Assembly: GCA_031082155.1 (NCBI GenBank)
Contig: JAVHLL010000010.1
Span: 1 to 64,000 of the forward strand
Reading direction: 5' to 3'
Length of the DNA stretch: 64,000 bases
Source: Thermodesulfovibrionales bacterium
Lineage (GTDB): Bacteria > Nitrospirota > Thermodesulfovibrionia > Thermodesulfovibrionales > SM23-35
The stretch's first letter is position 1. The number at the start of each line of letters is the position of its first letter. This document shows, piece by piece, positions 20,223 to 36,036 of the stretch. Made by a program: the position numbers and the translations under genes. The notes below the pieces were generated by a model that was given only the letters and a program-made list of their open reading frames with translations, searched no databases and had not been told where the DNA came from.

Positions 20223-21242
20223 TTAAAGACTTCTTTCAGCTACTTCTGCAAATAATCTTACTTTTACCATCATTGCAGTGAAGTTTTCCGGCTTGAGCGA
20301 CTGTGGACCGTCAGAAGAAGCATGTTCCGGATCAGGATGCACCTCGACCATAAGTCCGTCTGCCCCAGAAGCAATCGCGGCAAAAGACATCGGAGCTACA
20401 TAATGATAATTCCCTGTGGCATGCGATGGGTCTACAACAACCGGCAGATGCGTTTTCTGTTTTAAAACCGGAATGGCCGAGAGATCAAGGGTGTTCCGGG
20501 TAGCGGTCTCAAAGGTCCGTATCCCGCGTTCACAAAGGATTACCGCATGGTTTCCTTCACTCAGTATATATTCAGCGCTCATTAGCAGTTCCTGAATAGT
20601 CATTGACATTCCCCGTTTTAAAAGCACAGGTTTTTGTATCTGACCAAGTTTTTTTAAAAGCTCGAAGTTTTGAGCGTTCCTTGTTCCTATCTGGAGGATA
20701 TCCGAATATTCTGCAACAAGCTCAGCGGTTTCAGGATTCACAACTTCGGTAATAATCGGCAAGCCCGTTACCTCTCTGGCCTTTGCAAGCAGTCTTAATC
20801 CTTCCTCTTTCATGCCCTGAAACGCATAGGGTGATGTTCTTGGCTTAAAAGCACCCCCTCGCAACACTTTTGCACCCGCATTTTTCACTGCCTGTGCCAC
20901 CGCGATTATCTGCTCCTCGCTTTCCACTGCACACGGACCTGCCATTACAATGATATCCTTATCGCCTATAGCAACAGTGTCGCTGATTCTTATGACGCTC
21001 GTCTCTTTCTTAACTTCTCGCGAGGCAAGTTTATATGGCTTGAGTATCGGGACTACACTTTCTACTCCATTCATGAACTCGATTGACTGAAGGATCACCT
21101 TGCCACGCTCATCTCCGACTGCGCCGATCACATCTCTTGTTGTCCCATGGATAATATGAGGCTTATAACCGTATTCTTTGATTTTTTTAAGCACCTCTTC
21201 CCTCTCTCGTTTTGTTGCGCCTGCTTTCATTACAATAATCAC
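20223..21242 (-). CDS. aroF: DAHP synthase, type I-beta with N-terminal ferredoxin-like regulatory domain
   Basis: First enzyme of the shikimate pathway (PEP plus erythrose 4-phosphate). The 339-aa chain has an N-terminal ferredoxin-like (FL) domain of about 70 residues, then the TIM-barrel catalytic domain with [33 protein letters not shown] and VDPSHATG. The FL domain is the element used for aromatic feedback control in the Thermotoga-type enzyme. The GTG start at 21242 has a GGAG site eight bases upstream. Two hairpin terminators and a leader peptide rich in Phe/Tyr/Trp precede it, so expression is probably controlled by attenuation as well. Confidence 0.95.
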
Positions 21243-21273
21243 TTTGTCTTCTCCTTTCCTTTAACCGGAAACC

Positions 21274-21299
21274 AAAAAGGCCGGAGAGTTCTCCCGGCC
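21274..21299 (-). terminator. Second terminator-like hairpin in the aroF leader
   Basis: Minus strand GGCCGGGAG-aact-CTCCGGCC with one bulged G, followed by five T (21278-21274). It lies 32 bases upstream of the aroF start codon and downstream of the attenuator. Confidence 0.75.
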
Positions 21300-21318
21300 C
21301 TGATTAGTTTATGAAAAT

Positions 21319-21353
21319 AAAAAAGCCGGGGTTACTTTCCGTCTACCCTCGGC
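21319..21353 (-). terminator. aroF attenuator terminator hairpin
   Basis: Minus strand GCCGAGGGT (21353-21345) pairs with ACCCCGGC (21332-21325) and is followed by TTTTTT (21324-21319). Its 5' arm overlaps the 3' arm of the alternative antiterminator helix, as expected of a transcription attenuator. Confidence 0.8.
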
Positions 21354-21419
21354 TCCTGGTTGATTTTTTGTGTTAGCTCTGTCTATCTCTCACAATCAAC
21401 CCTTACCTAAGGCAGACGG
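21339..21419 (-). promoter_or_regulatory. Antiterminator structure of the aroF leader
   Basis: CCGTCTGCC (21419-21411) can pair with GGTAGACGG (21347-21339), a 9-bp helix with one G-U. Inside it GGTTGATT (21401-21394) pairs perfectly with AATCAACC (21365-21358). Forming the outer helix removes the 5' arm of the attenuator. The first arm lies directly after the Tyr-Phe-Phe codons of the leader peptide, so a ribosome stalled there would leave it free, while one reaching the stop codon would cover it. Confidence 0.75.
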
Positions 21420-21479
21420 CCTAAAGAAATAGCCGCGCCAGAAGGTAAAGTAACTAAATGAGAAGCAGAGTAAATGCAT
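21396..21479 (-). CDS. aroF leader peptide, rich in Phe/Tyr/Trp
   Basis: A 27-codon frame from ATG (21479) to TGA (21398-21396). Nine of residues 6-19 are aromatic: F6, F8, Y10, F11, F13, W14, Y17, F18 and F19 (FSFSYFTFWRGYFF). It lies between a good promoter and an attenuator upstream of DAHP synthase. This is the expected architecture for ribosome-stalling attenuation responding to all three aromatic amino acids. No ribosome site precedes the ATG, and the promoter position suggests a leaderless or nearly leaderless start. The identification rests on composition, position and RNA folding, not on homology. Confidence 0.8.
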   Translation of the reverse strand: MHLLCFSFSYFTFWRGYFFRPSALGKG

Positions 21480-21484
21480 GAGTA

Positions 21485-21514
21485 GTTTTAACAGATTCGT
21501 AAAATGGATGTCAA
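21485..21514 (-). promoter_or_regulatory. Promoter of the aroF leader
   Basis: Minus strand TTGACA (21514-21509), 18-base spacer, TAAAAC (21490-21485). The -35 is a perfect sigma-70 match and the -10 is moderate. It lies just beyond the porin terminator and directly before the leader-peptide ATG. Confidence 0.65.
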
Positions 21515-23087: not shown

Positions 23088-24386
23088 CTATAGTGTCCTT
23101 TTGTCTATAACCCTTCTCATCTTTCCTTCGATCCTTTCGAGCGATTGTTTTTCTACTGGTTTCACTTCTACAGATATGCCGAGTTCGGCCGCAAGTCTTG
23201 ATTTGATTTTTTCGATAAAATCTTTCTGTTTTCTGACCTGGTCAAAAAATATGGACTCGGACACCTCAACGAGCACAGTGAGTTCGTCAACCGCAACTTT
23301 CCTGTCGAGCAGTATCTGATACTGAGGTTCTGTTCCTTCAATCTCACGCAACACGGATTCAATTTGAGAGGGGAATACGGTAATCCCCCTTATTTTGATC
23401 ATATCATCTGTCCGTCCCATGACCTTGTTCATCCTGACAAATGACCTCCCGCATGCGCAGGATGCAGTTATGAGGCTTGTCAGGTCTCTGGTTCTAAAGC
23501 GGACCACAGGAAATGCTTCCTTCGTGAGTGTGGTAATAACCATTTCACCCGCTTCCCCCTCAGGCAATGGCTGAAGTGTTTCAGGATCAACCACTTCAAC
23601 AAGAAAGTGGTCCTCATTTATGTGGAGACCATTTCGCTCAGGACACTCTCCTGCTACTCCCGGGCTCATTACTTCACTTAACCCATAGTTATCAGTTGCA
23701 ACAATCTTTAGTTTTTCCTGCAATTCATGCCGCATTGCTTCAGACCATGGCTCTGCCCCGAAAAGTCCATACTTCAAAGAAAGGGAGTTTACATTCAATC
23801 CCATCTCCACGATTGTATTCGCTATTGCAAGAGCATAACCGGGGGTACACAGGAGAGCGGTCGTCTTGAAATCGTGCATTATTTTAACCTGTCGTCTTGT
23901 GCTTACGCTTGAGATGGGTATTACCGAAGCTCCTATGCGTTCTGCGCCATAATGCAGACCTAATGCTCCGGTAAAAAGGCCGTAATCGAAGGCAATCTGC
24001 ACGATATCATTTTGAGTAACACCTCCTGCCACAAGAATTCTTGCCGCAAGATTCGACCAGTTCTTTATATCATTTCTTGTATACCCAACTGCTGTTGGCA
24101 TTCCTGTTGTACCCGAAGATGTCTGCACCCTTACAACCTCACGCATGGGAACTGCAAACATACCATAAGGATAGCTTACCCTCAGGTCTTCCTTAGTCGT
24201 AAAGGGAAGTTTCCTTACGTCTTCGAGTGAGCGGAAAGCGTCAGGATCAATTCCTGACTCATCAAACTTTTTCCTGTAAAAAGGTACATTCATGTAAACT
24301 CTTAATACCGTGGCCTGAAGTCTTTCAAGCTGCAACTGCTTAAGTGATTCTCTCTGAATGCATTCTTTTTCCCCTTCCCAGTACAT
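23088..24386 (-). CDS. Phenylacetate-CoA ligase family protein (paralogue 1)
   Basis: AMP-forming aryl-CoA ligase, 432 aa from ATG 24386 (GGAGG site six bases upstream). It has the adenylation loop TSSGTTGMPTAVGYT, DNYGLSEVMSPGVAGEC, the hinge RTRDLTSLI, and the C-terminal catalytic-lysine region GKMRRVIDKRTL. A cysteine motif (CACGRSF) before GRTDDMIKIRG is typical of PaaK relatives. The N-terminus matches those of the two paralogues at 30.6 and 32.4 kb. It follows livF closely, so it belongs to the ACT-liv-ligase-porin string. Whether the acid is phenylacetate, 4-hydroxyphenylacetate or indoleacetate cannot be told. Confidence 0.88.
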   Translation of the reverse strand: MYWEGEKECIQRESLKQLQLERLQATVLRVYMNVPFYRKKFDESGIDPDAFRSLEDVRKLPFTTKEDLRVSYPYGMFAVPMREVVRVQTSSGTTGMPTAVGYTRNDIKNWSNLAARILVAGGVTQNDIVQIAFDYGLFTGALGLHYGAERIGASVIPISSVSTRRQVKIMHDFKTTALLCTPGYALAIANTIVEMGLNVNSLSLKYGLFGAEPWSEAMRHELQEKLKIVATDNYGLSEVMSPGVAGECPERNGLHINEDHFLVEVVDPETLQPLPEGEAGEMVITTLTKEAFPVVRFRTRDLTSLITASCACGRSFVRMNKVMGRTDDMIKIRGITVFPSQIESVLREIEGTEPQYQILLDRKVAVDELTVLVEVSESIFFDQVRKQKDFIEKIKSRLAAELGISVEVKPVEKQSLERIEGKMRRVIDKRTL

Positions 24387-24412
24387 ACACATCCTCCATT
24401 TTATCGAAAAAA

Positions 24413-25147
24413 TCAAATAGGGTAATCAACATCCCTGCCCAGGTAGGCTCTCTGGACATCTCTATTTAAAAGGAGATCTTCTGCAGGACCCTGGAGAATT
24501 ATTCTCCCTGTTTCGAGAACGTAACCGGTATTTGCGATCTTCAGGGCGCTTCGTGCGTTCTGCTCAACCAGAAGCACCGTAAGACCATAGGTGTCCCGTA
24601 ACTCAATAACATATCTGAATATCTCTTTGATTACTATTGGCGCAAGTCCCATGCTCGGTTCATCCAGGAGAAGAACCCTCGGTCTTGCCATTAATGCACG
24701 TCCGATAGCGAGCATTTGTTGTTCTCCACCTGAAAGCGTCCCTGCAAGTTGCTTCATCCGTTTTTTTAAAATAGGGAATATTGCATAGATCAGATCCATA
24801 TCCTCACTGACTTTTGAACGATTTTTCAGAGAATACCAGTGAAAAGAGCCGAGCAGCAAATTGTCCTCAACACTTAACGGCTTAAAAACAAGGCGTCCCT
24901 CTGGTACGTGAGAAATGCCTCTTTTTACTATGGCATCGGGGCTCAGCGTGGAGATATCGAGACCATCAAAAATCAGCTCGCCGTTTTTTGCCCTGATAAG
25001 ACCAGAAATAGTATGCAACAGGGTTGTTTTGCCCGCTCCATTGCTCCCTATAAGAGCAACAATCTCTCCCTTGTTCACATGGAGGGAGACCCTCTTTATG
25101 GTGTGTATCTTGCCGTAATAGACATCTACATTTTTAAGGATGAGCAC
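24413..25147 (-). CDS. livF: Branched-chain amino acid type ABC transporter, ATPase LivF
   Basis: Cytoplasmic ATPase of a high-affinity Liv-type importer. Walker A is GSNGAGKTTL, the signature is LSGGEQQMLAIGRALM and Walker B is VLLLDEPSMGLAP. The start is GTG at 25147, after a GGGGG site; the longer frame would run deep into livG. It overlaps the livG 3' end by 14 bases. Confidence 0.93.
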   Translation of the reverse strand: MLILKNVDVYYGKIHTIKRVSLHVNKGEIVALIGSNGAGKTTLLHTISGLIRAKNGELIFDGLDISTLSPDAIVKRGISHVPEGRLVFKPLSVEDNLLLGSFHWYSLKNRSKVSEDMDLIYAIFPILKKRMKQLAGTLSGGEQQMLAIGRALMARPRVLLLDEPSMGLAPIVIKEIFRYVIELRDTYGLTVLLVEQNARSALKIANTGYVLETGRIILQGPAEDLLLNRDVQRAYLGRDVDYPI

Positions 25148-25922
25148 TATATCCCCCTTGCATTTCTTCTTCTTCTCCAAGATACGCAACAATTACTTCC
25201 GGGTTTTTCTGGATTTCAAGCGGTGTGCCCTCAGCAATTACCTCGCCGAAATTCAGAACAGTGACAGAGTCACTTATCCTCATCACCAGGTCCATGTCGT
25301 GTTCGACAAGGACTACGGTTATCTTAAGCTCATCCCTGATTTTCCTGATAATCTCTCCGAGATCGCGTGTTTCCTTTATATTCAACCCTGCAGCAGGTTC
25401 GTCCAGAAGAATAAGCCGTGGCCCTGTAGCCAGGGCCCTTCCAATTTCTAAAATCCTTTGCTCTCCGATGGGAAGATTGGAAGCGACTTCGTCTTTTCTA
25501 TGACCGAGGTTGATATAGTTAAGAATTTCTTCACTTTTCCGTTGTATCTCCCTTTCTTCTCTCATGACAGAGGGGAATTTAAATCCTGAAGAGAAGAACC
25601 CGGCTTTGGTCTTCGCATACCGGCCAACCATAATATTTTCGAGAACGGTCATATTTCCAAACAGTTCAACATGCTGGAAGGTGCGTGAAATGCCCTTTCT
25701 GGCGATTCTTGAAGGACCCAGACGAATAATCTTTTCACCAGAAAACATGACTTCACCTTTATCGGGCTGATGAATACCGCTTACAATATTGAGCAGAGTC
25801 GTCTTACCGGCGCCATTTGGACCTATAAGCGCTTTAATGTGACCCTGTTCTACGTCGAAACTGATATTTCGCAGAGCTATAAGTCCTCCGAAACTTTTCC
25901 ATATCTCTTTAACGCTTAGCAA
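25134..25922 (-). CDS. livG: Branched-chain amino acid type ABC transporter, ATPase LivG
   Basis: Second ATPase of the importer. It has GPNGAGKTTLLN (Walker A), the LivG-specific insertion region (GISRTFQHVELFGNMTVLENIMVG), LPIGEQRILEIGRALA and LILLDEPAAGLN. The TTG at 25922, giving MLSVKEIWKSFGGL, is preferred because a GAGAGG site lies eight bases upstream within livM. Another TTG at 25928 is too close to it. It overlaps livM by 14 bases. Confidence 0.93.
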   Translation of the reverse strand: MLSVKEIWKSFGGLIALRNISFDVEQGHIKALIGPNGAGKTTLLNIVSGIHQPDKGEVMFSGEKIIRLGPSRIARKGISRTFQHVELFGNMTVLENIMVGRYAKTKAGFFSSGFKFPSVMREEREIQRKSEEILNYINLGHRKDEVASNLPIGEQRILEIGRALATGPRLILLDEPAAGLNIKETRDLGEIIRKIRDELKITVVLVEHDMDLVMRISDSVTVLNFGEVIAEGTPLEIQKNPEVIVAYLGEEEEMQGGYSAHP

Positions 25923-26859
25923 AAGCAAAGCCTCTCAGTTTCTTTATCTTGTCGATCAGGATTGGAACCAATCCCTTTCTGAAAAACATGAGGGATAACG
26001 TCAGGATTAAACCGTAGACCAGCACATCCAACTCTTCAAACTTCCTTAACAGCTCCGGCAGCACAGTAATAACCACTGCCCCGATGATTGCGCCCCACAA
26101 GTTCGAAATACCCCCAACAATCACCATCGTAAGGACTAAGATGGAGTAGAACAATGAAAAACTGCTCGGACTGATAAATGTCACATAATGCGCATAAAGA
26201 CTGCCGGCAAGAGAGGCATAGACCGCACTAAGGATAAAAACTTTTATTTTGATTGCAGTGACATTCAACCCCATCGCGTTACATGCCATTTCGCTGTCGT
26301 GGATAGCTCTCAATGCTCTTCCAGTTCTTGATTGAATAAGATTTATAGAGAAGAACATTATTACGGCAACAATACCCCATATCAGGTAGAAATAGCCCTG
26401 TGTTGAATCTATGGCATATCCGAAGAAACCGAAATGAGGGATATCTCCAAAGCCTGAAGGACCTCCAGGTCCCCATTCATTCAGGATTATATAGATAATT
26501 TCGCCAAAACCAAGTGTGGCTACCGCTAGATAATGTCCTTTTAATCTCAGCGCGGGGACTGCTAATATCACTGCAGCAATGGCAGAAATACCCATTGCTA
26601 AGATTGTACTGATAACGACCGGAAATCCCATATGAACACTTAAAATAGACGAGACATACGCACCGATACCATAAAACCCTGCCTGTCCTAATGATACCTG
26701 ACCCGCATACCCCATAAGTATGCATAGCCCAATCGCTACCAACGCATTTATCCCGGAAAATATTCCAACAGTCAATGTATAGGTGTTGCCTGAGATGACA
26801 GGCAGTAAGACAACAAAAAAGACCAAAATGAGCAGAGATAAGAAATCCTCTTTTTTCAT
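25909..26859 (-). CDS. livM: Branched-chain amino acid type ABC transporter, permease LivM
   Basis: Inner-membrane permease, 316 aa, with about ten hydrophobic segments and the conserved LivM blocks GYAGQVSLGQAGFYGIGAY (near residues 50-68) and the EAA-like loop GRALRAIHDSEMACNAMGLN. It pairs with LivH three bases upstream. The solute is not fixed by sequence: many Liv systems carry aromatic acids rather than Leu/Ile/Val. Confidence 0.93.
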   Translation of the reverse strand: MKKEDFLSLLILVFFVVLLPVISGNTYTLTVGIFSGINALVAIGLCILMGYAGQVSLGQAGFYGIGAYVSSILSVHMGFPVVISTILAMGISAIAAVILAVPALRLKGHYLAVATLGFGEIIYIILNEWGPGGPSGFGDIPHFGFFGYAIDSTQGYFYLIWGIVAVIMFFSINLIQSRTGRALRAIHDSEMACNAMGLNVTAIKIKVFILSAVYASLAGSLYAHYVTFISPSSFSLFYSILVLTMVIVGGISNLWGAIIGAVVITVLPELLRKFEELDVLVYGLILTLSLMFFRKGLVPILIDKIKKLRGFAFAKR

Positions 26860-26862
26860 GTG

Positions 26863-27750
26863 TTAAAACTTCCTCAAATCGAGTGTTGTTTTGCTGACGA
26901 ATAATCCGGAAGGTTTTAAGAAAAGAATCACCAGGAGAATAACGAGCGCTACTGCGTCCTTTGATCCTGAATGTATGTATCCGGCGGTCATGGACTCAAG
27001 GACACCGATAAGGAATCCGCCTAGCACCGCTCCTCTATTGCTCCCAATTCCCCCCATTATTGCCGCACAAAACCCTTTTACCGCAAGCATGGGACCTTTG
27101 TCATATTCCATCAGAGAGATAGGAGTTATCGCCATACCTCCAATCGCACCAACTATGGCGCTCAGTATAAAAGAAAACATAACCATTCGCGATACATTGA
27201 TTCCCACTAGTTTCGCTGCGGTAGTATGCACTGAACAAGCGAGCATGGCTTTTCCCAGCATGGTCTTTTTAAAGAAAAAAAACAACAAAACGATACAGAA
27301 ACCGGTAATACCTATAACCCAAAGCGCCTGTTGCTGAATAATTGCCCCATAAATGTTCACAGGTTCTCCTTCGGTAAACGCAGGGTACACATAGGGTTCC
27401 TTGCCGAAACTGAACATTAAAATACCCCGTAACACGATCGAAACTGCGATGGTAATCATAATCATCAGCAACAGATCCGGATTTTTTAAAGGTTTTATTG
27501 TAAGCCTTTCCATGAGAAACCCGATAATTCCGGCGGTAAGAATGGTCAATGCAACCGAAACAAAAAAGGGGAGTTTCAGCGATTCGGAAAAAAACCACAT
27601 CATGAGACCACCGATTACGACAAATTCACCCTGGGCGAGATTTATAATAGACGTAGCATTATAGGTTATATTAAACCCTATAGCAACCAAGGCATACACA
27701 GCCCCGACGGTAAGACCTGAGAAAAGAAATTGTAAGAAGACTGTAAGCAA
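26863..27750 (-). CDS. livH: Branched-chain amino acid type ABC transporter, permease LivH
   Basis: Permease of 295 aa with the LivH opening FSGLTVGAVYALVAIGFNITYNATSIINLAQGEFVVIGG, abundant hydrophobic segments, and the cytoplasmic loop GKAMLACSVHTTAAKLVGIN. The gene is separated from livK by 64 bp that hold a strong 12-bp hairpin, probably adjusting binding protein versus permease levels. Confidence 0.93.
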   Translation of the reverse strand: MLTVFLQFLFSGLTVGAVYALVAIGFNITYNATSIINLAQGEFVVIGGLMMWFFSESLKLPFFVSVALTILTAGIIGFLMERLTIKPLKNPDLLLMIMITIAVSIVLRGILMFSFGKEPYVYPAFTEGEPVNIYGAIIQQQALWVIGITGFCIVLLFFFFKKTMLGKAMLACSVHTTAAKLVGINVSRMVMFSFILSAIVGAIGGMAITPISLMEYDKGPMLAVKGFCAAIMGGIGSNRGAVLGGFLIGVLESMTAGYIHSGSKDAVALVILLVILFLKPSGLFVSKTTLDLRKF

Positions 27751-27771
27751 ATTTTGATATTTCCTGAAGAG

Positions 27772-27801
27772 ACTTGAGGGGATAGTACCATCCCCTCAAG
27801 T
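27772..27801 (-). promoter_or_regulatory. Intercistronic hairpin between livK and livH
   Basis: ACTTGAGGGGAT pairs perfectly with ATCCCCTCAAGT around a 6-base loop. No T-run follows on the minus strand, so it is more likely an RNA-stabilising or processing hairpin that protects the livK message than a full terminator. Confidence 0.65.
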
Positions 27802-27814
27802 GTTCAATCCATGA

Positions 27815-28975
27815 TTATTTTAACAGTGACCAATCACCATTTTTTACTACGACCATCTCAAAAGCATTCTTGTCTAAACCGCAGTGGTCATTCTTTGACA
27901 TATTAAAAACACCGCCGGTCCCCGGCCAATTCTTGATCTTCGTTTCTATATAATCTCTTATCTTCTTTTTGTCAGGGCCGACTTTTTTCAGTGCTTCCAC
28001 TATCATCATGATGGAATCATATGCATGTCCGCCAAAGGTGCCCGGTTCACCTTTATATCTTGCCTCATAATCCTGCGTATACTTTTTCAATAAAGCTTTC
28101 TGGGGGTGCTTGTCCGCGAGTTTATCCCATACTACCAGCCTTCCGAGTGGCGCGATGACTCCTTCTGCAGCCTTCCCTGCGAGTTCTATGTTCTTCTTGC
28201 TTCCCCATCCATGGCTCTGATAGAGAGGGATCCCCATTCTCAGTGCATGCCAGTTTTTTGTCACAACTACCTGGCCCGGTCCTACAGACCAGTTAATTAC
28301 CGCCTGGGCTCCTGAGGCCTTGATTTTAGTAAGCTGTGTCGTCATATCTGAATCTTTTGGCCCGTATTTCTCTTCTGCAACAATAGTAATGCCATATTTG
28401 GGGGCTATTTCAATGAGTGCCTTTTTCCCAGCATCCCCAAAGCCTGTGGATATAGTGATAATTCCGACCTTGCTTATGCCCTGCTTTTTCATATACCCAT
28501 AGATTGCCTCAACTGCGCTGATATCATACTGGGGTGTTTTGAAAATCCAGGTTCGATCTTTGACAGGCTGGGTTATCGGCGCCCCGGCTGCACAGGAAAG
28601 GAGCGGTGTCGCGGCAGTATTCAGAATAGGGACCAATGCCATTGATTCACCGGTAGTCGACGGCCCTATAATAGCCAGAACCTTATCATTTTCGAGAAGT
28701 TTTTTGGCGGAGAGAACAGCCTGCGTCTCATCACTTTTTGTATCCTCAATAAGAATTTCAAGAGGATGTCCGTTTATACCGCCCGCTTTGTTAATCTGAT
28801 CCTGGAGCATGAGCGCGGTATTCTTTTCAGGTTCTCCCAAGAAAGAAGCAGGCCCGGTTACTGCAAGAAGCGCCCCTATTTTATAGGGTTCTTTTGCAAA
28901 GGCATTCACGCACAAAAGACAAACAGACAATACTGCAACCATTACTACAAAAAACTTTCCCGATGTTCTTTTCAT
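27815..28975 (-). CDS. livK: Liv-type periplasmic substrate-binding protein
   Basis: Periplasmic receptor of the Liv importer, 386 aa from ATG 28975 (AGGAGG site). The signal peptide ends near VNAFA. It has the type I periplasmic-binding fold: KIGALLAVTGPASFLGEPEKNTALMLQ, ALVPILNTAATPLLSCAAGAPIT, and YDSIMMIVEALKKVG. It precedes livHMGF and follows a tandem-ACT gene. The ligand pocket cannot be assigned; aromatic acid or amino acid ligands are favoured by the surrounding ligase genes. Confidence 0.92.
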   Translation of the reverse strand: MKRTSGKFFVVMVAVLSVCLLCVNAFAKEPYKIGALLAVTGPASFLGEPEKNTALMLQDQINKAGGINGHPLEILIEDTKSDETQAVLSAKKLLENDKVLAIIGPSTTGESMALVPILNTAATPLLSCAAGAPITQPVKDRTWIFKTPQYDISAVEAIYGYMKKQGISKVGIITISTGFGDAGKKALIEIAPKYGITIVAEEKYGPKDSDMTTQLTKIKASGAQAVINWSVGPGQVVVTKNWHALRMGIPLYQSHGWGSKKNIELAGKAAEGVIAPLGRLVVWDKLADKHPQKALLKKYTQDYEARYKGEPGTFGGHAYDSIMMIVEALKKVGPDKKKIRDYIETKIKNWPGTGGVFNMSKNDHCGLDKNAFEMVVVKNGDWSLLK

Positions 28976-28999
28976 ACACTCCTCCTTCAAATGAATTTA

Positions 29000-30611: not shown

Positions 30612-31904
30612 ATGTTCTGGCAAAAAGATATCGAAATGATTAGCCGCAGGGCTCTGGAAGAATTGCAGCTGAAAAGGTTGAAACAAACTGTTCGCCAGGC
30701 CTATAAAAATATACCGTTCTACAAAGAACACTTTTCAAAACTTCACATTCAGCCAAAAGACATCACCTCTCTAAAGGATATCCGGAAACTCCCCTTCACA
30801 ACCAGGGAAGATCTGCGTGAATATTACCCATTTGGCATGCTTGCCGTTACAAAAGAACAGGTTGTGCGTCTCCATACCTCAAGCGGAACCACAGGGAAAC
30901 CAAAAGCCATCTTTTTTACAAAAAAAGACGTAGACCGTGCAGCCGAGCTCATAGCCCGATGCCTTATTATGACAGGAGTTGCAAAAGGTGATGTGCTCCA
31001 GAACATGATGACCTATGGATTATTTACCGGCGCTCTCGTCATGCATTATGGCGCGGAGAAAGTGGGCGTATTGGTAATTCCGGCAGGTCCTGGAAATACA
31101 AAGAGACAGATAGCCCTTATGCAGGATTTTAAGACTACTACCCTCCATATCACTCCCAGTTATGCGCTCTATCTTGCCACAGTTATGCAGAATGAAGGAC
31201 TGGACCCGCAAAAAGACTTTTCTCTCCGTAGGGCATATCTCGGTTCCGAACCATATTCTGAAGAAACGAGGAAAAAGATTGAAAAGTTCTTTCACATTGA
31301 TGTATATAATTCTTACGGATTGTCTGAAATGAATGGTCCGGGAGTTGCATTTGAATGCAGGGAAAAGAATGGGATGCATCTGTGGGAAGATAACTTCATC
31401 ATGGAGGTCATCGATCCCGATACTGGTGAAACAAAGCCTGACGGGGAAAAAGGTGAGCTTGTCCTCACTACGCTATACCGTGAAGCGATGCCTATCCTGC
31501 GTTACCGAACACGCGATATCACCAGGATACTTCCAGGTAAATGTAAATGTGGGAGAACCCATCGCAGGATTTCACGGATTATCGGCAGAACAGACGATAT
31601 GATTATCGTACGCGGGGTAAACATTTTCCCTCAACAGATCGAACGGGTTTTGATGGGCGTCAAAGCCGTTGCGCAGAATTATCAGATCGTCCTCGAGTCT
31701 TATGACCAGATGACCGTGAGAGTGGAAATCGTGAAAGAACTCTTCGACGGGAAAGTGGATCATTTAGTAAATCTCAGGAACGAGATAACAGAAAAAATAC
31801 GGTCAGAAATCCTTGTAAGACCAAAAGTGGAACTCCTGGAGCCGGGCACGCTGCCGGTGAGCGAGGGGAAAGCAATTAGAGTTATTGATAAACGGACTCT
31901 TTAA
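30612..31904 (+). CDS. Phenylacetate-CoA ligase family protein (paralogue 2)
   Basis: AMP-forming aryl-CoA ligase of 430 aa. Motifs are [16 protein letters not shown] (adenylation), YNSYGLSEMNGPGVAFEC, RYRTRDITRIL, a CKCGRTHRRI cysteine motif, GRTDDMIIVRGVNIFPQQIE and the terminal GKAIRVIDKRTL. It lies between iorB and the second ACT gene. The proximity to IOR suggests that it activates or releases the arylacetate used or made by IOR. Confidence 0.9.
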   Translation: MFWQKDIEMISRRALEELQLKRLKQTVRQAYKNIPFYKEHFSKLHIQPKDITSLKDIRKLPFTTREDLREYYPFGMLAVTKEQVVRLHTSSGTTGKPKAIFFTKKDVDRAAELIARCLIMTGVAKGDVLQNMMTYGLFTGALVMHYGAEKVGVLVIPAGPGNTKRQIALMQDFKTTTLHITPSYALYLATVMQNEGLDPQKDFSLRRAYLGSEPYSEETRKKIEKFFHIDVYNSYGLSEMNGPGVAFECREKNGMHLWEDNFIMEVIDPDTGETKPDGEKGELVLTTLYREAMPILRYRTRDITRILPGKCKCGRTHRRISRIIGRTDDMIIVRGVNIFPQQIERVLMGVKAVAQNYQIVLESYDQMTVRVEIVKELFDGKVDHLVNLRNEITEKIRSEILVRPKVELLEPGTLPVSEGKAIRVIDKRTL

Positions 31905-31945: not shown

Positions 31946-32413
31946 ATGGAACAATTAAAGCAGCTCTCCATCTTTTCTGAAAACAAGCCCGGCAGACTTA
32001 CCAAAATAACAAAAGTTCTCGCGGAAGAAGGCGTGAACATCCTTGCAATCAATATTGCAAGTTCTGATGGGTTCGGGGTAATACGGTTTATCGTCGATAA
32101 ATGCGAACTGGCTGCACAGAAGCTCCGGCAAAAAGGCTTTACCGTCTCTCTTAATGAAGTGATGGCTATTGAATTAGTGGACAGGCCCGGGGGATTATTT
32201 GAAGTCTCCGCGCTTTTATCAAAGAAAAAAATCAATATCGAGAACGCGTATGTATTGATCCTGGGATCAAGAAAAAAGGCCTTCTTAATAGTAGATGTGA
32301 ATGAAATCGAAAAAGCGAAAAAACTTTTAAAGCATGAAAATCTGCGTTTTTTTACCGTAAAGAAAAGAGGGGAAAGCAAAACCGTACAAGGAGAAAAAAA
32401 TGATCTGGAATAA
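31946..32413 (+). CDS. Tandem ACT-domain protein (paralogue 2, divergent)
   Basis: A 155-aa double-ACT protein ([52 protein letters not shown]). It differs from paralogues 1 and 3 in the first-domain tail and in a basic C-terminal extension. It overlaps the start of the third ligase gene by 14 bases, so it is translationally coupled to it. A different amino acid specificity is plausible but not shown. Confidence 0.83.
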
Positions 32414-33698
32414 AGAAGCAGAAAGCATGCGCATCGGGGAGAGGGAAACGCTGCAGATCGAAAGACTTAAGGCAATTCTCAGACGAGCATATAAAAATGT
32501 ACCCTATTACAAAAATAGATTCGACGAACTGAAGGTTAAACCGGCAGATATTAAAAGCCTTAAAGACATAAAAAAACTCCCGTTCACCACAAAAACCGAC
32601 TTGAGAGAAGGATACCCTTTCGGGTTTTTCGCAGTCCCGCGCAAGGAAATAGTAGAGGTGCACACTTCGTCCGGAACTACAGGAAAGCCGACAGTATCCG
32701 GCTATACGAGGAAAGACATAGATATCTGGGGTGAAGTGGTAGCGCGCGCCCTCACAATGTGCGGTGCGACAAAAAACGATATTATTCAAAATGGATATGG
32801 ATATGGCCTGTTTACCGGGGGACTGGGCGTGCACTATGGAGCCCAGCGGATCGGGGCAACTATAGTCCCAGTGTCCGCAGGTCAGACAAAAAGACACCTC
32901 GACATTATGCAGGATTTTGGCTCCACCATCCTCACCTGCACCCCGTCTTACGCATTGTATCTTACAGAAGCAGTTGCAGAAGCAGGCATAAATATCAAGA
33001 AATTGAAACTCAAGGCGGGATGTTTCGGCGCAGAGATGTGGACTGACAGGATGCGTGATGAAATCGAAAAGAGGTTTCACCTGCTCGCACTGAATATTTA
33101 CGGACTCACTGAAATAATAGGTCCGGGTGTAGCACAGGAATGCGACCAAAAAAATGGACTCCACATCTTTGAGGACCATTTCTATCCAGAGGTTGTTTCC
33201 CCTGAGACACTCGATCCCCTTCCTGATGGGGAAAAAGGAGAGCTGGTTCTCACTACATTAACCCGCGACGGCATGCCGATGATCCGATTCAGGACGAGGG
33301 ATATAACCACGTTAAGGAGAGAACCCTGCAAATGTGGGAGGACCCTTGTCCGTATGGACCGTATCACCGGACGCTCAGACGATATGCTGAAGATAAGGGG
33401 CGTTCTCATCTTCCCTTCCCAGATCGAAAAAGCGCTGCTTGAAGTAAAAGGCGTAGAACCGCATTATCAAATAATCGTGACACGACCGCAGCACCTTGAT
33501 GAGATTGAGGTACAGGTAGAGACTTCGAAGAAATTATTCTCTGACGAAGTGAAACACCTTGAGGAAGTGAAGAAGAAAATCGAAAAACACATTGAAAACT
33601 CAATCGGGCTCAGGGTAAAGGTTACGCTCGTTGAACCAAAGACCCTTCCCAGAAGTGAAGGCAAAGCAAAGAGGGTTATAGACAAACGTCAATTATAA
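32400..33698 (+). CDS. Phenylacetate-CoA ligase family protein (paralogue 3)
   Basis: A 432-aa ligase with [78 protein letters not shown] and [12 protein letters not shown]. It has an AAGGAG site six bases before the ATG. Its adenylation loop is closer to paralogue 1 (PTxxGYTRxDI) than to paralogue 2, which suggests different substrates. It is followed after 11 bp by the third ACT gene. Confidence 0.9.
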
Positions 33699-33709: not shown

Positions 33710-34141
33710 ATGGAAGTGAAACAAATATCCTTATTTTTAGAGAACAAGAAAGGAAGGTTATCGGAAGCGCTGGACGTCCTCGCAAAGGCAGACATTAACA
33801 TCAGGGCTCTCTCAATCGCTGATACATCAGATTTTGGAATCCTGCGTTTAATTGTCCCCGATCCGGATAAAGCAAAAAAGGTCCTTACGAAAAGCAGCTT
33901 CACGGTCAGGGAAAGTGATGTAATTGCTGTCGGCGTATCGGACAAACCCGGCGGGCTGGCAAGTGTTCTGAAACTTTTAACCGATGCGGATATCAATGTC
34001 GAATATATGTACGCCTTTGTTGAGAAAAGCGGAGAGAAAGCAGTGGTAGTGTTACGGACAGACAGCATCAGCAACGGGAAAAAAGCACTAAAAAAAGCCG
34101 GCGTTACTGTGCTTTCTTCTCGGGACGTATATGGGTTATAG
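33710..34141 (+). CDS. Tandem ACT-domain protein (paralogue 3)
   Basis: A 143-aa double-ACT protein (QISLFLENKKGRLSEALDVLAKADINI; VSDKPGGLASVLKLLTDADINVEYMYAF). It is very close in layout to paralogue 1. The start has a GGAG site. Its 3' end overlaps the convergent iorA 3' end by 38 bp, which leaves no room for a conventional shared terminator between the two operons. Confidence 0.85.
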   Translation: MEVKQISLFLENKKGRLSEALDVLAKADINIRALSIADTSDFGILRLIVPDPDKAKKVLTKSSFTVRESDVIAVGVSDKPGGLASVLKLLTDADINVEYMYAFVEKSGEKAVVVLRTDSISNGKKALKKAGVTVLSSRDVYGL

Positions 34142-35717
34142 ATTTCCTTCTCATTTTCGCAAGTCTCCTGGTCACAAACACACAGGGTCTGCGTGAAATA
34201 ACGACATTTACTCCTTCAGCGTCCAGCTTTTCTCTCAGTATTGCCTCTGTTTTCTCGACATCATACGGGTCGGTCACTTCAACAGAATTTACACCGCAGG
34301 ATTTACAGAGTCCCTCAAGAGAGATTTTTCCACCCTCTTCTCCTTTTGCATTAATGCCGGTTAACGGTGTCGGCTGGTTCCCTGTCATCGCAATCGCTGA
34401 ATTATCCAGAATAAGCACAAGAATATTTGCCTTGTTATACACTGCATTGATCAATGCAGGGATCCCGGAATGAAGAAAGGTTGAATCACCAATGACTGCC
34501 GCCACTCTTTTTACCCCCTGCTTGGCAATCCCTGCCGCCTTGCTGATGCCGGCCCCCATACAGAGGCAGGTATCCACAATTTGATAGGGCGGATTGACTC
34601 CGAGGGTATAGCAGCCGATATCTCCGGCAGTGAATGCAGGCGCTACCAATTTCAGCGCATCATAAAGCTTGCTATGCGGACAACCCGGGCACATTGAAGG
34701 GGGCCTGGGAGGCAACGGCTTAGAAGGCTTATCCCTTTTTCGACTTTTTCCCATTTCCGGGATACTCTGGGTTATCACATCCGGTCCAAGTTCGCCTATA
34801 GCGATGATTTCGCCTGATATTTTCCCTTTCACCCGTGAAGAATACCTCCTTGCGATTTCCTCAACAAAGGGTTCCCCTTCTTCTAAAACCCAGACTTCTT
34901 CCAATCCTTTCACAAATTCCTCTATCAATTTATCAGCAAAGGGGTAATAAGAAATCTTCAGGATAGCATATTCAGGGCCATATTCCCTGGCATAGACATA
35001 CCCGATACCACAGGCTATGATCCCTTTCTTCTGGCCATTTTTCAAGGTCTTATTCAACCCTGAATCTTCTCCCCATTGTCTCAAACCTTCCTGTTTTTCG
35101 TTCAGATTTCTGTGACATCTCAATACATTACTCGGAACAGCGATCATGTTCGCAGGATCTTTCTTCAGTACAAGAGGATTCTGCTCCCTCACCTCTCCTA
35201 TTTCAACCGGTGAATAGGCATGGGAAATCCTCGTCACGGTTCTTAGCATCACCGGGAGCCCCGTCTTCTCCGATAAGTCGAAAGCCATGATCGTCATATC
35301 CTTGGCTTCCTGTGAATCACTCGGCTCGAGGCAGGGTATTTTGGCAAATTTCGCATAGAAGCGGGAATCCTGTTCATTTTGTGAAGAATATGCTCCAGGG
35401 TCATCAGCAACTGCAAGCACCAGCCCACCTTTAATCCCAAGATACGCAATAGTCATTAATGGGTCTGATGCGACATTCAGCCCTACATGCTTCATAGAAC
35501 AAATCGCTCTTTTTCCTGCATAGGAAGCGCCGATAGCAGTTTCAAAAGCAATCTTTTCATTCACCGACCATTCTGCATCACCGGAGAAATTCCGTGCGAT
35601 ATAGGTAAGAATTTCAGTAGCCGGAGTTCCCGGATAACTTGTTGCAAGAGAAATCCCTGCCTCTATCGCCCCTCTTCCAATCGCATCATCGCCTGACAGT
35701 ATTATCTCTTTATTCAT
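34104..35717 (-). CDS. iorA: Indolepyruvate:ferredoxin oxidoreductase, alpha subunit lacking the C-terminal ferredoxin domain
   Basis: TPP-dependent large subunit, 537 aa from ATG 35717 (AGGTGA upstream; GTG at 35732 is an alternative). It has the N-terminal pyrimidine-binding part (GAIEAGISLATSYPGTPATEIL), MCPGCPHSKLYDAL, and the TPP/Mg motif from GDSTFLHSG to LILDNSAIAMTG. Family members usually end in two [4Fe-4S] ferredoxin motifs. Here the chain stops soon after VVISRRPCVFVTRR with no CxxCxxC pair, and the DNA beyond is the convergent ACT gene. Electrons must pass to a separate carrier. Confidence 0.9.
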   Translation of the reverse strand: MNKEIILSGDDAIGRGAIEAGISLATSYPGTPATEILTYIARNFSGDAEWSVNEKIAFETAIGASYAGKRAICSMKHVGLNVASDPLMTIAYLGIKGGLVLAVADDPGAYSSQNEQDSRFYAKFAKIPCLEPSDSQEAKDMTIMAFDLSEKTGLPVMLRTVTRISHAYSPVEIGEVREQNPLVLKKDPANMIAVPSNVLRCHRNLNEKQEGLRQWGEDSGLNKTLKNGQKKGIIACGIGYVYAREYGPEYAILKISYYPFADKLIEEFVKGLEEVWVLEEGEPFVEEIARRYSSRVKGKISGEIIAIGELGPDVITQSIPEMGKSRKRDKPSKPLPPRPPSMCPGCPHSKLYDALKLVAPAFTAGDIGCYTLGVNPPYQIVDTCLCMGAGISKAAGIAKQGVKRVAAVIGDSTFLHSGIPALINAVYNKANILVLILDNSAIAMTGNQPTPLTGINAKGEEGGKISLEGLCKSCGVNSVEVTDPYDVEKTEAILREKLDAEGVNVVISRRPCVFVTRRLAKMRRKSITHIRPEKKAQ

Positions 35718-36036
35718 TTGATTTTCATTCACCTGAGGATACCCCTTTAATCCATTTTTTATAATTCTGTTTATCATTATACCTAATTTCGATGGAAATG
35801 TTTGTGAGACAGGACCCTTCAAGAACAGGTTATGGTCATTTTTATAATCCTCACTATCTTCAAGGGGAGATTGGAGAAATATTTGGAAATAAACCGATAC
35901 CACCCCTCCCCCTACTTATTAGGAGGGGCTTGATCTTTCCCCCGACTATTCTGATTACATCCTTAACTCAATGAGTTTGTATTTCCAAATTTTGCTCTAT
36001 CAATTGTCAGAATAATGCATGTAGAATATTTATGAA
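35718..36036. other. 319-bp divergent intergenic region upstream of iorA and the amidohydrolase
   Basis: Holds an AT-rich stretch expected to carry the iorA promoter and one inverted repeat (CCCCTCC 35903-35909 with GGAGGGG 35922-35928). No gene or clear promoter pair was assigned. Confidence 0.45.

Follow-up and report, generated by a model that had tools for sequence, protein, structure and literature searches.

A probable ribosome-mediated attenuator with an aromatic-codon leader upstream of aroF in a Thermodesulfovibrionales bacterium, and its relatives in Nitrospirota and Desulfobacterota

Most of what is known about the control of aromatic amino acid synthesis comes from E. coli, Bacillus and Corynebacterium. 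The locus described here precedes a DAHP synthase gene of a Thermodesulfovibrionales bacterium and may control it. In the stretch of 64,000 nucleotides that was analysed (the window), aroF is preceded by a region (21514-21243, minus strand) for which an initial annotation had proposed leader-peptide attenuation. The aroF product contains domains PF18152 and PF00793, which place it in DAHP synthase class I-beta, and the promoter, 27-codon leader, antiterminator and terminator with its T6 tract were all reproduced at the coordinates claimed, upstream of this gene (Table 1). The leader ORF runs from an ATG at 21479 to a stop codon at 21398-21396 and encodes the peptide MHLLCFSFSYFTFWRGYFFRPSALGKG, with Phe, Tyr or Trp at residues 6, 8, 10, 11, 13, 14, 17, 18 and 19 (6 Phe, 2 Tyr, 1 Trp). 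When 21243-21514 was dinucleotide-shuffled 2000 times, no shuffle gave an ATG-initiated ORF with nine aromatics in 14 residues (best, eight), and the leader is the sole such aromatic ORF within the window with TTGACA at the correct distance. Taken with the comparative data below, the arrangement points to a ribosome-mediated (trp-type) transcription attenuator, a reading to which we give a probability of about 0.91.

Two helices at this locus compete for one strand. The antiterminator is formed by CCGUCUGCC (21419-21411) pairing with GGUAGACGG (21347-21339), and RNAfold lengthens this A:C helix to 11 bp (21419-21409 with 21349-21339, duplex -19.0 kcal/mol). The terminator is formed by GCCGAGGGU (21353-21345) pairing with AACCCCGGC (21333-21325, -13.6 kcal/mol), followed by T6 at 21324-21319. 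Both helices use 21347-21345 and are mutually exclusive. A second terminator-like hairpin (T2), a 1:2 protector hairpin (P1) and the probable absence of a 5' UTR on the leader are additions to the earlier description.

Table 1. Features of the aroF upstream region, in window coordinates.
Feature	Position	Strand	Basis
-35 hexamer TTGACA	21509..21514	minus	at 35-38 nt 5' of leader ATG in 46/50 relatives
-10 hexamer TTAAAA, spacer 17 nt	21486..21491	minus	sequence
Leader ORF, 27 codons + stop, 9 aromatic codons, predicted leaderless	21396..21479	minus	sequence and relatives
P1 protector hairpin, 5' arm GCGGC (GGC = Gly codon following Trp-Arg)	21432..21436	minus	covariation
P1 3' arm GCCGU, overlapping antiterminator arm A	21416..21420	minus	alignment
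Antiterminator arm A (trp segment 2), CCGUCUGCCUU, within leader ORF	21409..21419	minus	covariation and fold
P2 hairpin 5' arm, between A and C	21391..21401	minus	fold; arms differ between lineages
P2 hairpin 3' arm	21358..21372	minus	fold
G, 5' side of long-range helix with H	21353..21361	minus	good support in relatives; imperfect in window
Antiterminator arm C (trp segment 3), AGGGUAGACGG	21339..21349	minus	pairing with A in alignments
Terminator T1 (C:D hairpin 21353-21325 + T6)	21319..21353	minus	fold and covariation
Second terminator-like hairpin T2, just 5' of Shine-Dalgarno	21277..21301	minus	stem conserved, U-tract often not
H, 3' side of long-range helix with G	21263..21271	minus	relatives
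Shine-Dalgarno AAGGAG of aroF	21251..21256	minus	sequence
aroF, DAHP synthase class I-beta, N-terminal ferredoxin-like domain, GTG start at 21242	20223..21242	minus	

A generic promoter scan reported no promoter at the leader on the minus strand, since the scan requires an A and a T that the -10 hexamer does not have. Support for a promoter with this unusual -10 hexamer is comparative and comes from the spacing of TTGACA, which starts 35-38 nt 5' of the leader ATG in 46 of 50 non-redundant leaders. The exceptions are L005, where a nested downstream second match was scored, and L010, L057 and, less well, L087, where an upstream in-frame ATG fits better. By this spacing the transcription start would coincide with the ATG or lie no more than 1-2 nt from it, leaving no room for a Shine-Dalgarno sequence before the leader ORF, which we therefore infer to be leaderless, without a 5' UTR. 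The arrangement appears to hold for the Geobacter/Nitrospirota clade. As a trait of the whole family (see below) it was rejected, a -35 hexamer at the proper distance being found in 13 of 102 wide-family matches.

Using the AroF protein as query, loci were taken from the genomes of 61 relatives and from 80 named contigs. Leaders of the same form were present in Thermodesulfovibrionia and Geobacterales, with the consensus FxFxxFYFWYGFYFRPSA, and the leader frame and the two helices recurred in relatives both close and remote, the helices with compensatory changes. In alignment A1 (45 aligned leaders) A:C formed standard pairs in 98.6% of cells as compared with 38-52% when slid, and P1, which joins the Tyr/Cys-Gly codons to the start of arm A, was paired in 93.8% as compared with 11-64% when slid. 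Compensation in P1 (CGGC/GCCG to CGGT/ACCG) was seen in seven sequences of similar type, and P1 was not found in every lineage. RNAalifold run without a given structure returned P1, A:C and T2. In the broader alignment A3 (37 diverse sequences) A:C was paired in 86.1% of cells (36-43% slid), with two-sided changes at 8 of 11 pairs and 33 cells changed on both sides, and T1 in 84.7% (33-56% slid), with 35 cells changed on both sides. Since A:C and T1 both covary, the strand that they share covaries with two different partners. The conserved leader, the two helices and their compensatory changes thus lend support to the proposal that aroF would be controlled by leader-peptide attenuation.

In the AroF tree the leader-bearing Nitrospirota and the Thermodesulfovibrio type grouped together, adjoining Geobacterales and far from the second aroF of the same genome, a topology which, with the tree read unrooted, is consistent with joint transfer of gene and leader between phyla. 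That second aroF, on contig C43, follows an aminotransferase-like gene and was not seen to have such a leader; two loci with a close AroF (L045, L085) also had no such leader. In the Thermodesulfovibrio-type loci (f10; L011-L014) the attenuator lies directly behind a tRNA gene and a Shine-Dalgarno-like site precedes the leader. The tRNA in L013 was found with Rfam and called tRNA-Pro by eye from its anticodon.

The features that characterize trp-type attenuators were found here: a short leader ORF rich in codons for the pathway product before a biosynthetic gene, an antiterminator and an intrinsic terminator that exclude each other on one shared strand, codons placed so that a stalled ribosome would free the antiterminator arm (taking the ribosome footprint from general knowledge), and P1 as the 1:2 protector hairpin. 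Stalling, termination and read-through, and the amino acids that act, we infer from this arrangement as follows. The transcript would begin at the leader ATG or no more than a nucleotide or two away from it, and its leader ORF would be translated as a leaderless message. When charged aromatic tRNAs are ample, the ribosome would reach the stop codon and cover A, so that C would form T1 and aroF would be off. Were a charged aromatic tRNA in short supply, the ribosome would wait about 12-32 nt upstream of A and mask the 5' arm of P1; A, thus freed, would pair with C, T1 would be blocked and aroF would be transcribed. If there were no translation, P1 would occupy the start of A and termination would be favoured.

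The position of the codons bears on where such a stall may occur. Across the family, 55-86% of places 9-32 nt upstream of arm A are taken by aromatic codons; the share falls to 44% at 6-8 nt and to 0-1% at 0-5 nt. In the window the distances to GUCU are 32 nt (Phe11), 26 (Phe13), 23 (Trp14), 14 (Tyr17), 11 (Phe18) and 8 (Phe19). A ribosome covers about 12-15 nt ahead of the codon being decoded. By this usual footprint, stalls at Phe13, Trp14 and Tyr17 would mask the 5' arm of P1 and leave A free, and codons about 12-32 nt upstream (these three, with Phe11 at the far edge) appear better placed as stall sites. The initial annotation had placed the last stall site, Tyr-Phe-Phe, directly before the arm, which fits poorly, since a ribosome at Phe18 or Phe19 would cover the start of A. 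The annotation had also proposed joint sensing of Phe, Tyr and Trp by a single leader. Codons for all three are indeed conserved, and would allow such sensing, but the presence of codons does not establish that the three are sensed jointly. Among 50 core leaders Phe was present in 50, Trp in 50 and Tyr in 48, with codon totals of 328 Phe, 138 Tyr and 52 Trp. The Trp codon is fixed at 21 nt before arm A in the core set (18 in Phe-deleted variants). That all core leaders carry it at this set position argues for a part played by Trp here. In other Desulfobacterota, many of the leaders before DAHP synthase genes have no Trp.

The distribution of the element was examined with two covariance models, R1 for the core and the broader R2 following alignment A3. 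R1 found one copy in the bacterium's own genome, before aroF, and a search of the window turned up no further attenuator of this family. About a dozen true R1 matches were present in 296 Nitrospirota genomes, those examined preceding aroF; four other first-model matches in this phylum (L128-L131) were rejected as chance, having other genes and no leader. R1 matched in 65 of 297 Desulfobacterota genomes, and R2 in 144 of 395 Desulfobacterota genomes at E <= 1e-4 and in 15 of 101 relatives at E <= 1e-3. With R2 there was no match among 199 Planctomycetota genomes at E <= 1e-4, nor in six genomes of Planctomycetota, Nitrospinota and Gemmatimonadota. Searches with Rfam gave nothing on the window up to E = 1 except a sub-threshold sok, and nothing on 17 related loci up to E = 0.5 except a tRNA and a sub-threshold BjrC68; the Rfam leader families (Trp, Phe, His, Leu and Thr leaders, T-box) gave no covariance-model match. 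As judged from these searches, the family is widespread in Desulfobacterota, present in some Nitrospirota and without an Rfam entry.

Elements of other make-up were seen at three aroF loci. Two planctomycete genes (L096, L099) have aromatic-rich ORFs (GFWYEFYFWYSFRG and SFWSGFYFWYPQKG) about 200-300 nt upstream together with a strong terminator, and L096 has a different candidate arm pair (CGGGGAT/ATCCCCG), so these are possible cases of an independent or very divergent attenuator outside the model. At L015 (G045, f4) an ORF of the form FW..F..WW lies 5' of aroF, with a pair GCCTGCGG/CCGCAGGC before a terminator-like hairpin; it is likely another aromatic attenuator beyond the models.

To see what the switch precedes, 102 matches from Desulfobacterota genomes were retrieved and inspected. 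An aromatic-rich leader was found in 101 of them, the exception being L214, and in L204 the choice of leader ORF was uncertain. By gene class, as tblastn similarity to seed proteins rather than a profile search of each gene, the matches preceded 49 DAHP synthases of I-beta types, 20 ADH synthases, 6 DAHP synthases I-alpha, 4 shikimate kinases, 10 phenylacetate-CoA ligases, 8 ABC substrate-binding proteins and 5 unassigned genes; the seed proteins were themselves named from their sequences, by the known features of the families. ADH synthase provides the other entry to the aromatic pathway. Leaders of DAHP synthase, ADH synthase and shikimate kinase genes mix Phe and Tyr, often with Trp, those of phenylacetate-CoA ligase genes are nearly Phe-only (44 Phe, 3 Tyr and 1 Trp in six scored leaders), and those of substrate-binding-protein genes are Phe-only or Tyr-rich, so the codon make-up of the leader follows the downstream gene across the sequences compared. 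The phenylacetate-CoA ligase genes with the switch are L143, L153, L162, L186, L188, L219, L223, L224, L227 and L245, with leaders such as MDNRFFRFRFFGFFGGFFFRKSAHGRGR. Tyr-rich leaders (MLYDGYSYYGYLRRSARAF in L212, ...HIGYYYYGYLRRSAL in L236) stand before ABC substrate-binding-protein-like genes and are candidate Tyr-specific versions. Arm A is translated as PSA, VCP or GLP, all three frames being used across the family, and is therefore conserved as RNA and not as peptide.

Leader, switch, covariation, spacing and gene association are features of the sequences themselves, and a broader reading of them, to which we give even odds, is that the switch is a reusable cassette in which the antiterminator/terminator core stays constant while the codon run attached to it can be exchanged. 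For DAHP synthases, ADH synthase and shikimate kinase the cassette would act as an OR gate answering to a shortage of Phe, Tyr or Trp; for phenylacetate-CoA ligase and some transporters it would answer to Phe shortage, and for other transporters to Tyr shortage. In the Geobacter/Nitrospirota branch the second conserved hairpin and a long-range helix (G:H, Table 1) would have been added. One RNA switch appears to run three different first-step enzymes, shikimate kinase and arylacetate-salvage genes in a large and poorly studied group of anaerobes. Because the codon run varies with the gene, it predicts the amino acid to which each gene answers: phenylacetate-CoA ligase and some ABC transporters of these anaerobes would be induced by Phe shortage, which would point to salvage of phenylacetate for Phe synthesis and not to its degradation. 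The amino-acid predictions are directly testable in Geobacter.

In the window itself, phenylacetate-CoA ligase-like genes lie near aroF between 23088 and 35903 (23088-24416, minus; 30612-31904, plus; 32400-33698, plus), along with a branched-chain-type ABC transporter (24413-28990, minus) and an indolepyruvate oxidoreductase-like gene (34104-35903, minus). By the families of these genes, the neighbourhood is one of arylacetate and aromatic keto acid metabolism.

Downstream of T1, the hairpin T2 is kept in core leaders, with a pattern-matched end 24-43 nt before the start codon (21 nt in L007, a likely pattern mis-hit). A strong U-tract (at least 6 U of 8) follows T2 in 14 of 50 leaders as compared with 30 of 43 non-Geomonas leaders for T1. 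T2 could itself terminate, and A:C does not directly disable it. A further helix joins G, just upstream of T1, to H, just downstream of T2, and so spans both hairpins (A1 columns 89-96 and 209-215). It was found in compensated versions (CCGAAA/TTTCGG, CCGGAA/TTCCGG, CCACAAA/TTTGTGG, CCGCAA/TTGCGG and CCAGAAA/TTTCTGG), with one-base-pair insertions in relatives compensated on both sides, and its own score was 16.1 as compared with 12.4 +/- 0.45 on a permutation that ignores relatedness. G:H could arise only on transcripts that extend beyond T1, and it would form a pseudoknot with A:C. Neither T2 nor G:H is present in the Thermodesulfovibrio-type loci (f10). A relay in which the freed 3' arm of the terminator would pair with the 5' arm of T2 (D:E) is possible in several species and was rejected; the T1 and T2 stems are merely similar, and E:F is the longer hairpin. 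Seven loci, mostly Geomonas (L038, L039, L040, L051, L052, L062, L066), kept the leader, A and C and had lost the U-tract and much of the stem of T1, with arm A also altered in L040 (CGCTCCCCGG). Termination at T1 is therefore not the whole story there, and the mode of control has possibly changed in these relatives.

These downstream structures suggested that T2 and G:H might gate the Shine-Dalgarno site of aroF, a form of translational control that would account for a T2 kept in spite of its usually weak U-tract, for a compensated G:H and for Geomonas relatives without an intact T1. When the read-through RNA was folded with A free or blocked, however, accessibility of the Shine-Dalgarno site changed little (mean 0.46 vs 0.53), which gave no clear effect, and translational gating also sits poorly with the good T1 U-tract of most relatives and with the f10 loci that have neither structure; we regard it as unlikely. 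Arrest by the nascent peptide, in place of codon-tRNA supply, would explain the strong conservation of the core peptide FYFWYGFYFRPSA within the Geobacter/Nitrospirota clade. Conservation outside the aromatic residues tracks the RNA arm, though, which is read in three frames to give differing peptides (VCP, PSA, GLP), and leaders of the wider family have little in common except aromatic content, so that arrest seems very improbable. That a chance ORF lies beside an ordinary upstream terminator is hardly credible: short ORFs are common and the generic promoter scan was empty here on the minus strand, but the shuffles never matched the leader, and conservation with covariation extends across two phyla.

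Within trp-type attenuation, it is quite possible, although we rather doubt it, that one aromatic amino acid is mainly sensed, most likely Phe, with the Tyr and Trp codons as passengers or serving only to slow the ribosome. Phe predominates, both here (6 of 9) and in the 50 core leaders (totals above), and the Phe-Tyr-Phe aroR leader of C. glutamicum answers to Phe and not to Tyr (PMC11802643). The fixed Trp codon, on the other hand, stands where a stall would free A, and leaders of DAHP and ADH synthase genes keep both Phe and Tyr whereas those of phenylacetate-CoA ligase genes are near pure Phe.

A search of the open full-text literature, subscription papers and supplements lying outside its scope, gave no description of this family for Geobacter, Desulfovibrio or Nitrospirota, and a term search of two broad surveys (PMC2965389, PMC11109978) gave no mention of it. 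The family itself is apparently undescribed, and earlier notice of it is possible. Attenuation of this class is a classical mechanism; for DAHP synthase genes, attenuators with aromatic leaders have been recorded in C. glutamicum and suggested in Acholeplasma (PMC4046766, PMC11802643, PMC8632094).

Compared with known systems, the proposed switch has the same 1:2, 2:3, 3:4 logic as trpL-trpE (Rfam RF00513, Trp_leader) and pheL-pheA of E. coli, with the codons shortly upstream of segment 2; these differ in having one amino acid each, and no Rfam model matches the aroF element. The E. coli leaders have a ribosome binding site, which the aroF leader described here would lack. A leader ORF that starts at the transcription start is known from trpL (rnTrpL) of Sinorhizobium meliloti (PMC7298713), which, as compared by description and not by RNA, shares the predicted leaderless start and differs in carrying Trp only. 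uORFC-13-1, upstream of Acholeplasma aroF, has 24 representatives, in Acholeplasma and environmental sequences only (PMC8632094). It is alike in having a short ORF with Phe codons and a terminator before aroF and is set apart, by its description, by a ribosome binding site, for which the aroF leader would have no room, and by its run of Phe only. Closest in arrangement to the gene studied here is the aroR-aroF attenuator of C. glutamicum (Neshat et al. 2014, as cited in PMC11802643 and PMC8079986; leader in PMC4046766), where an aromatic-codon leader likewise precedes a DAHP synthase gene and ribosome stalling raises transcription. By its published description, with which alone it was compared, that system is actinobacterial, carries Phe-Tyr-Phe only and responds to limitation of Phe and not of Tyr (PMC11802643).
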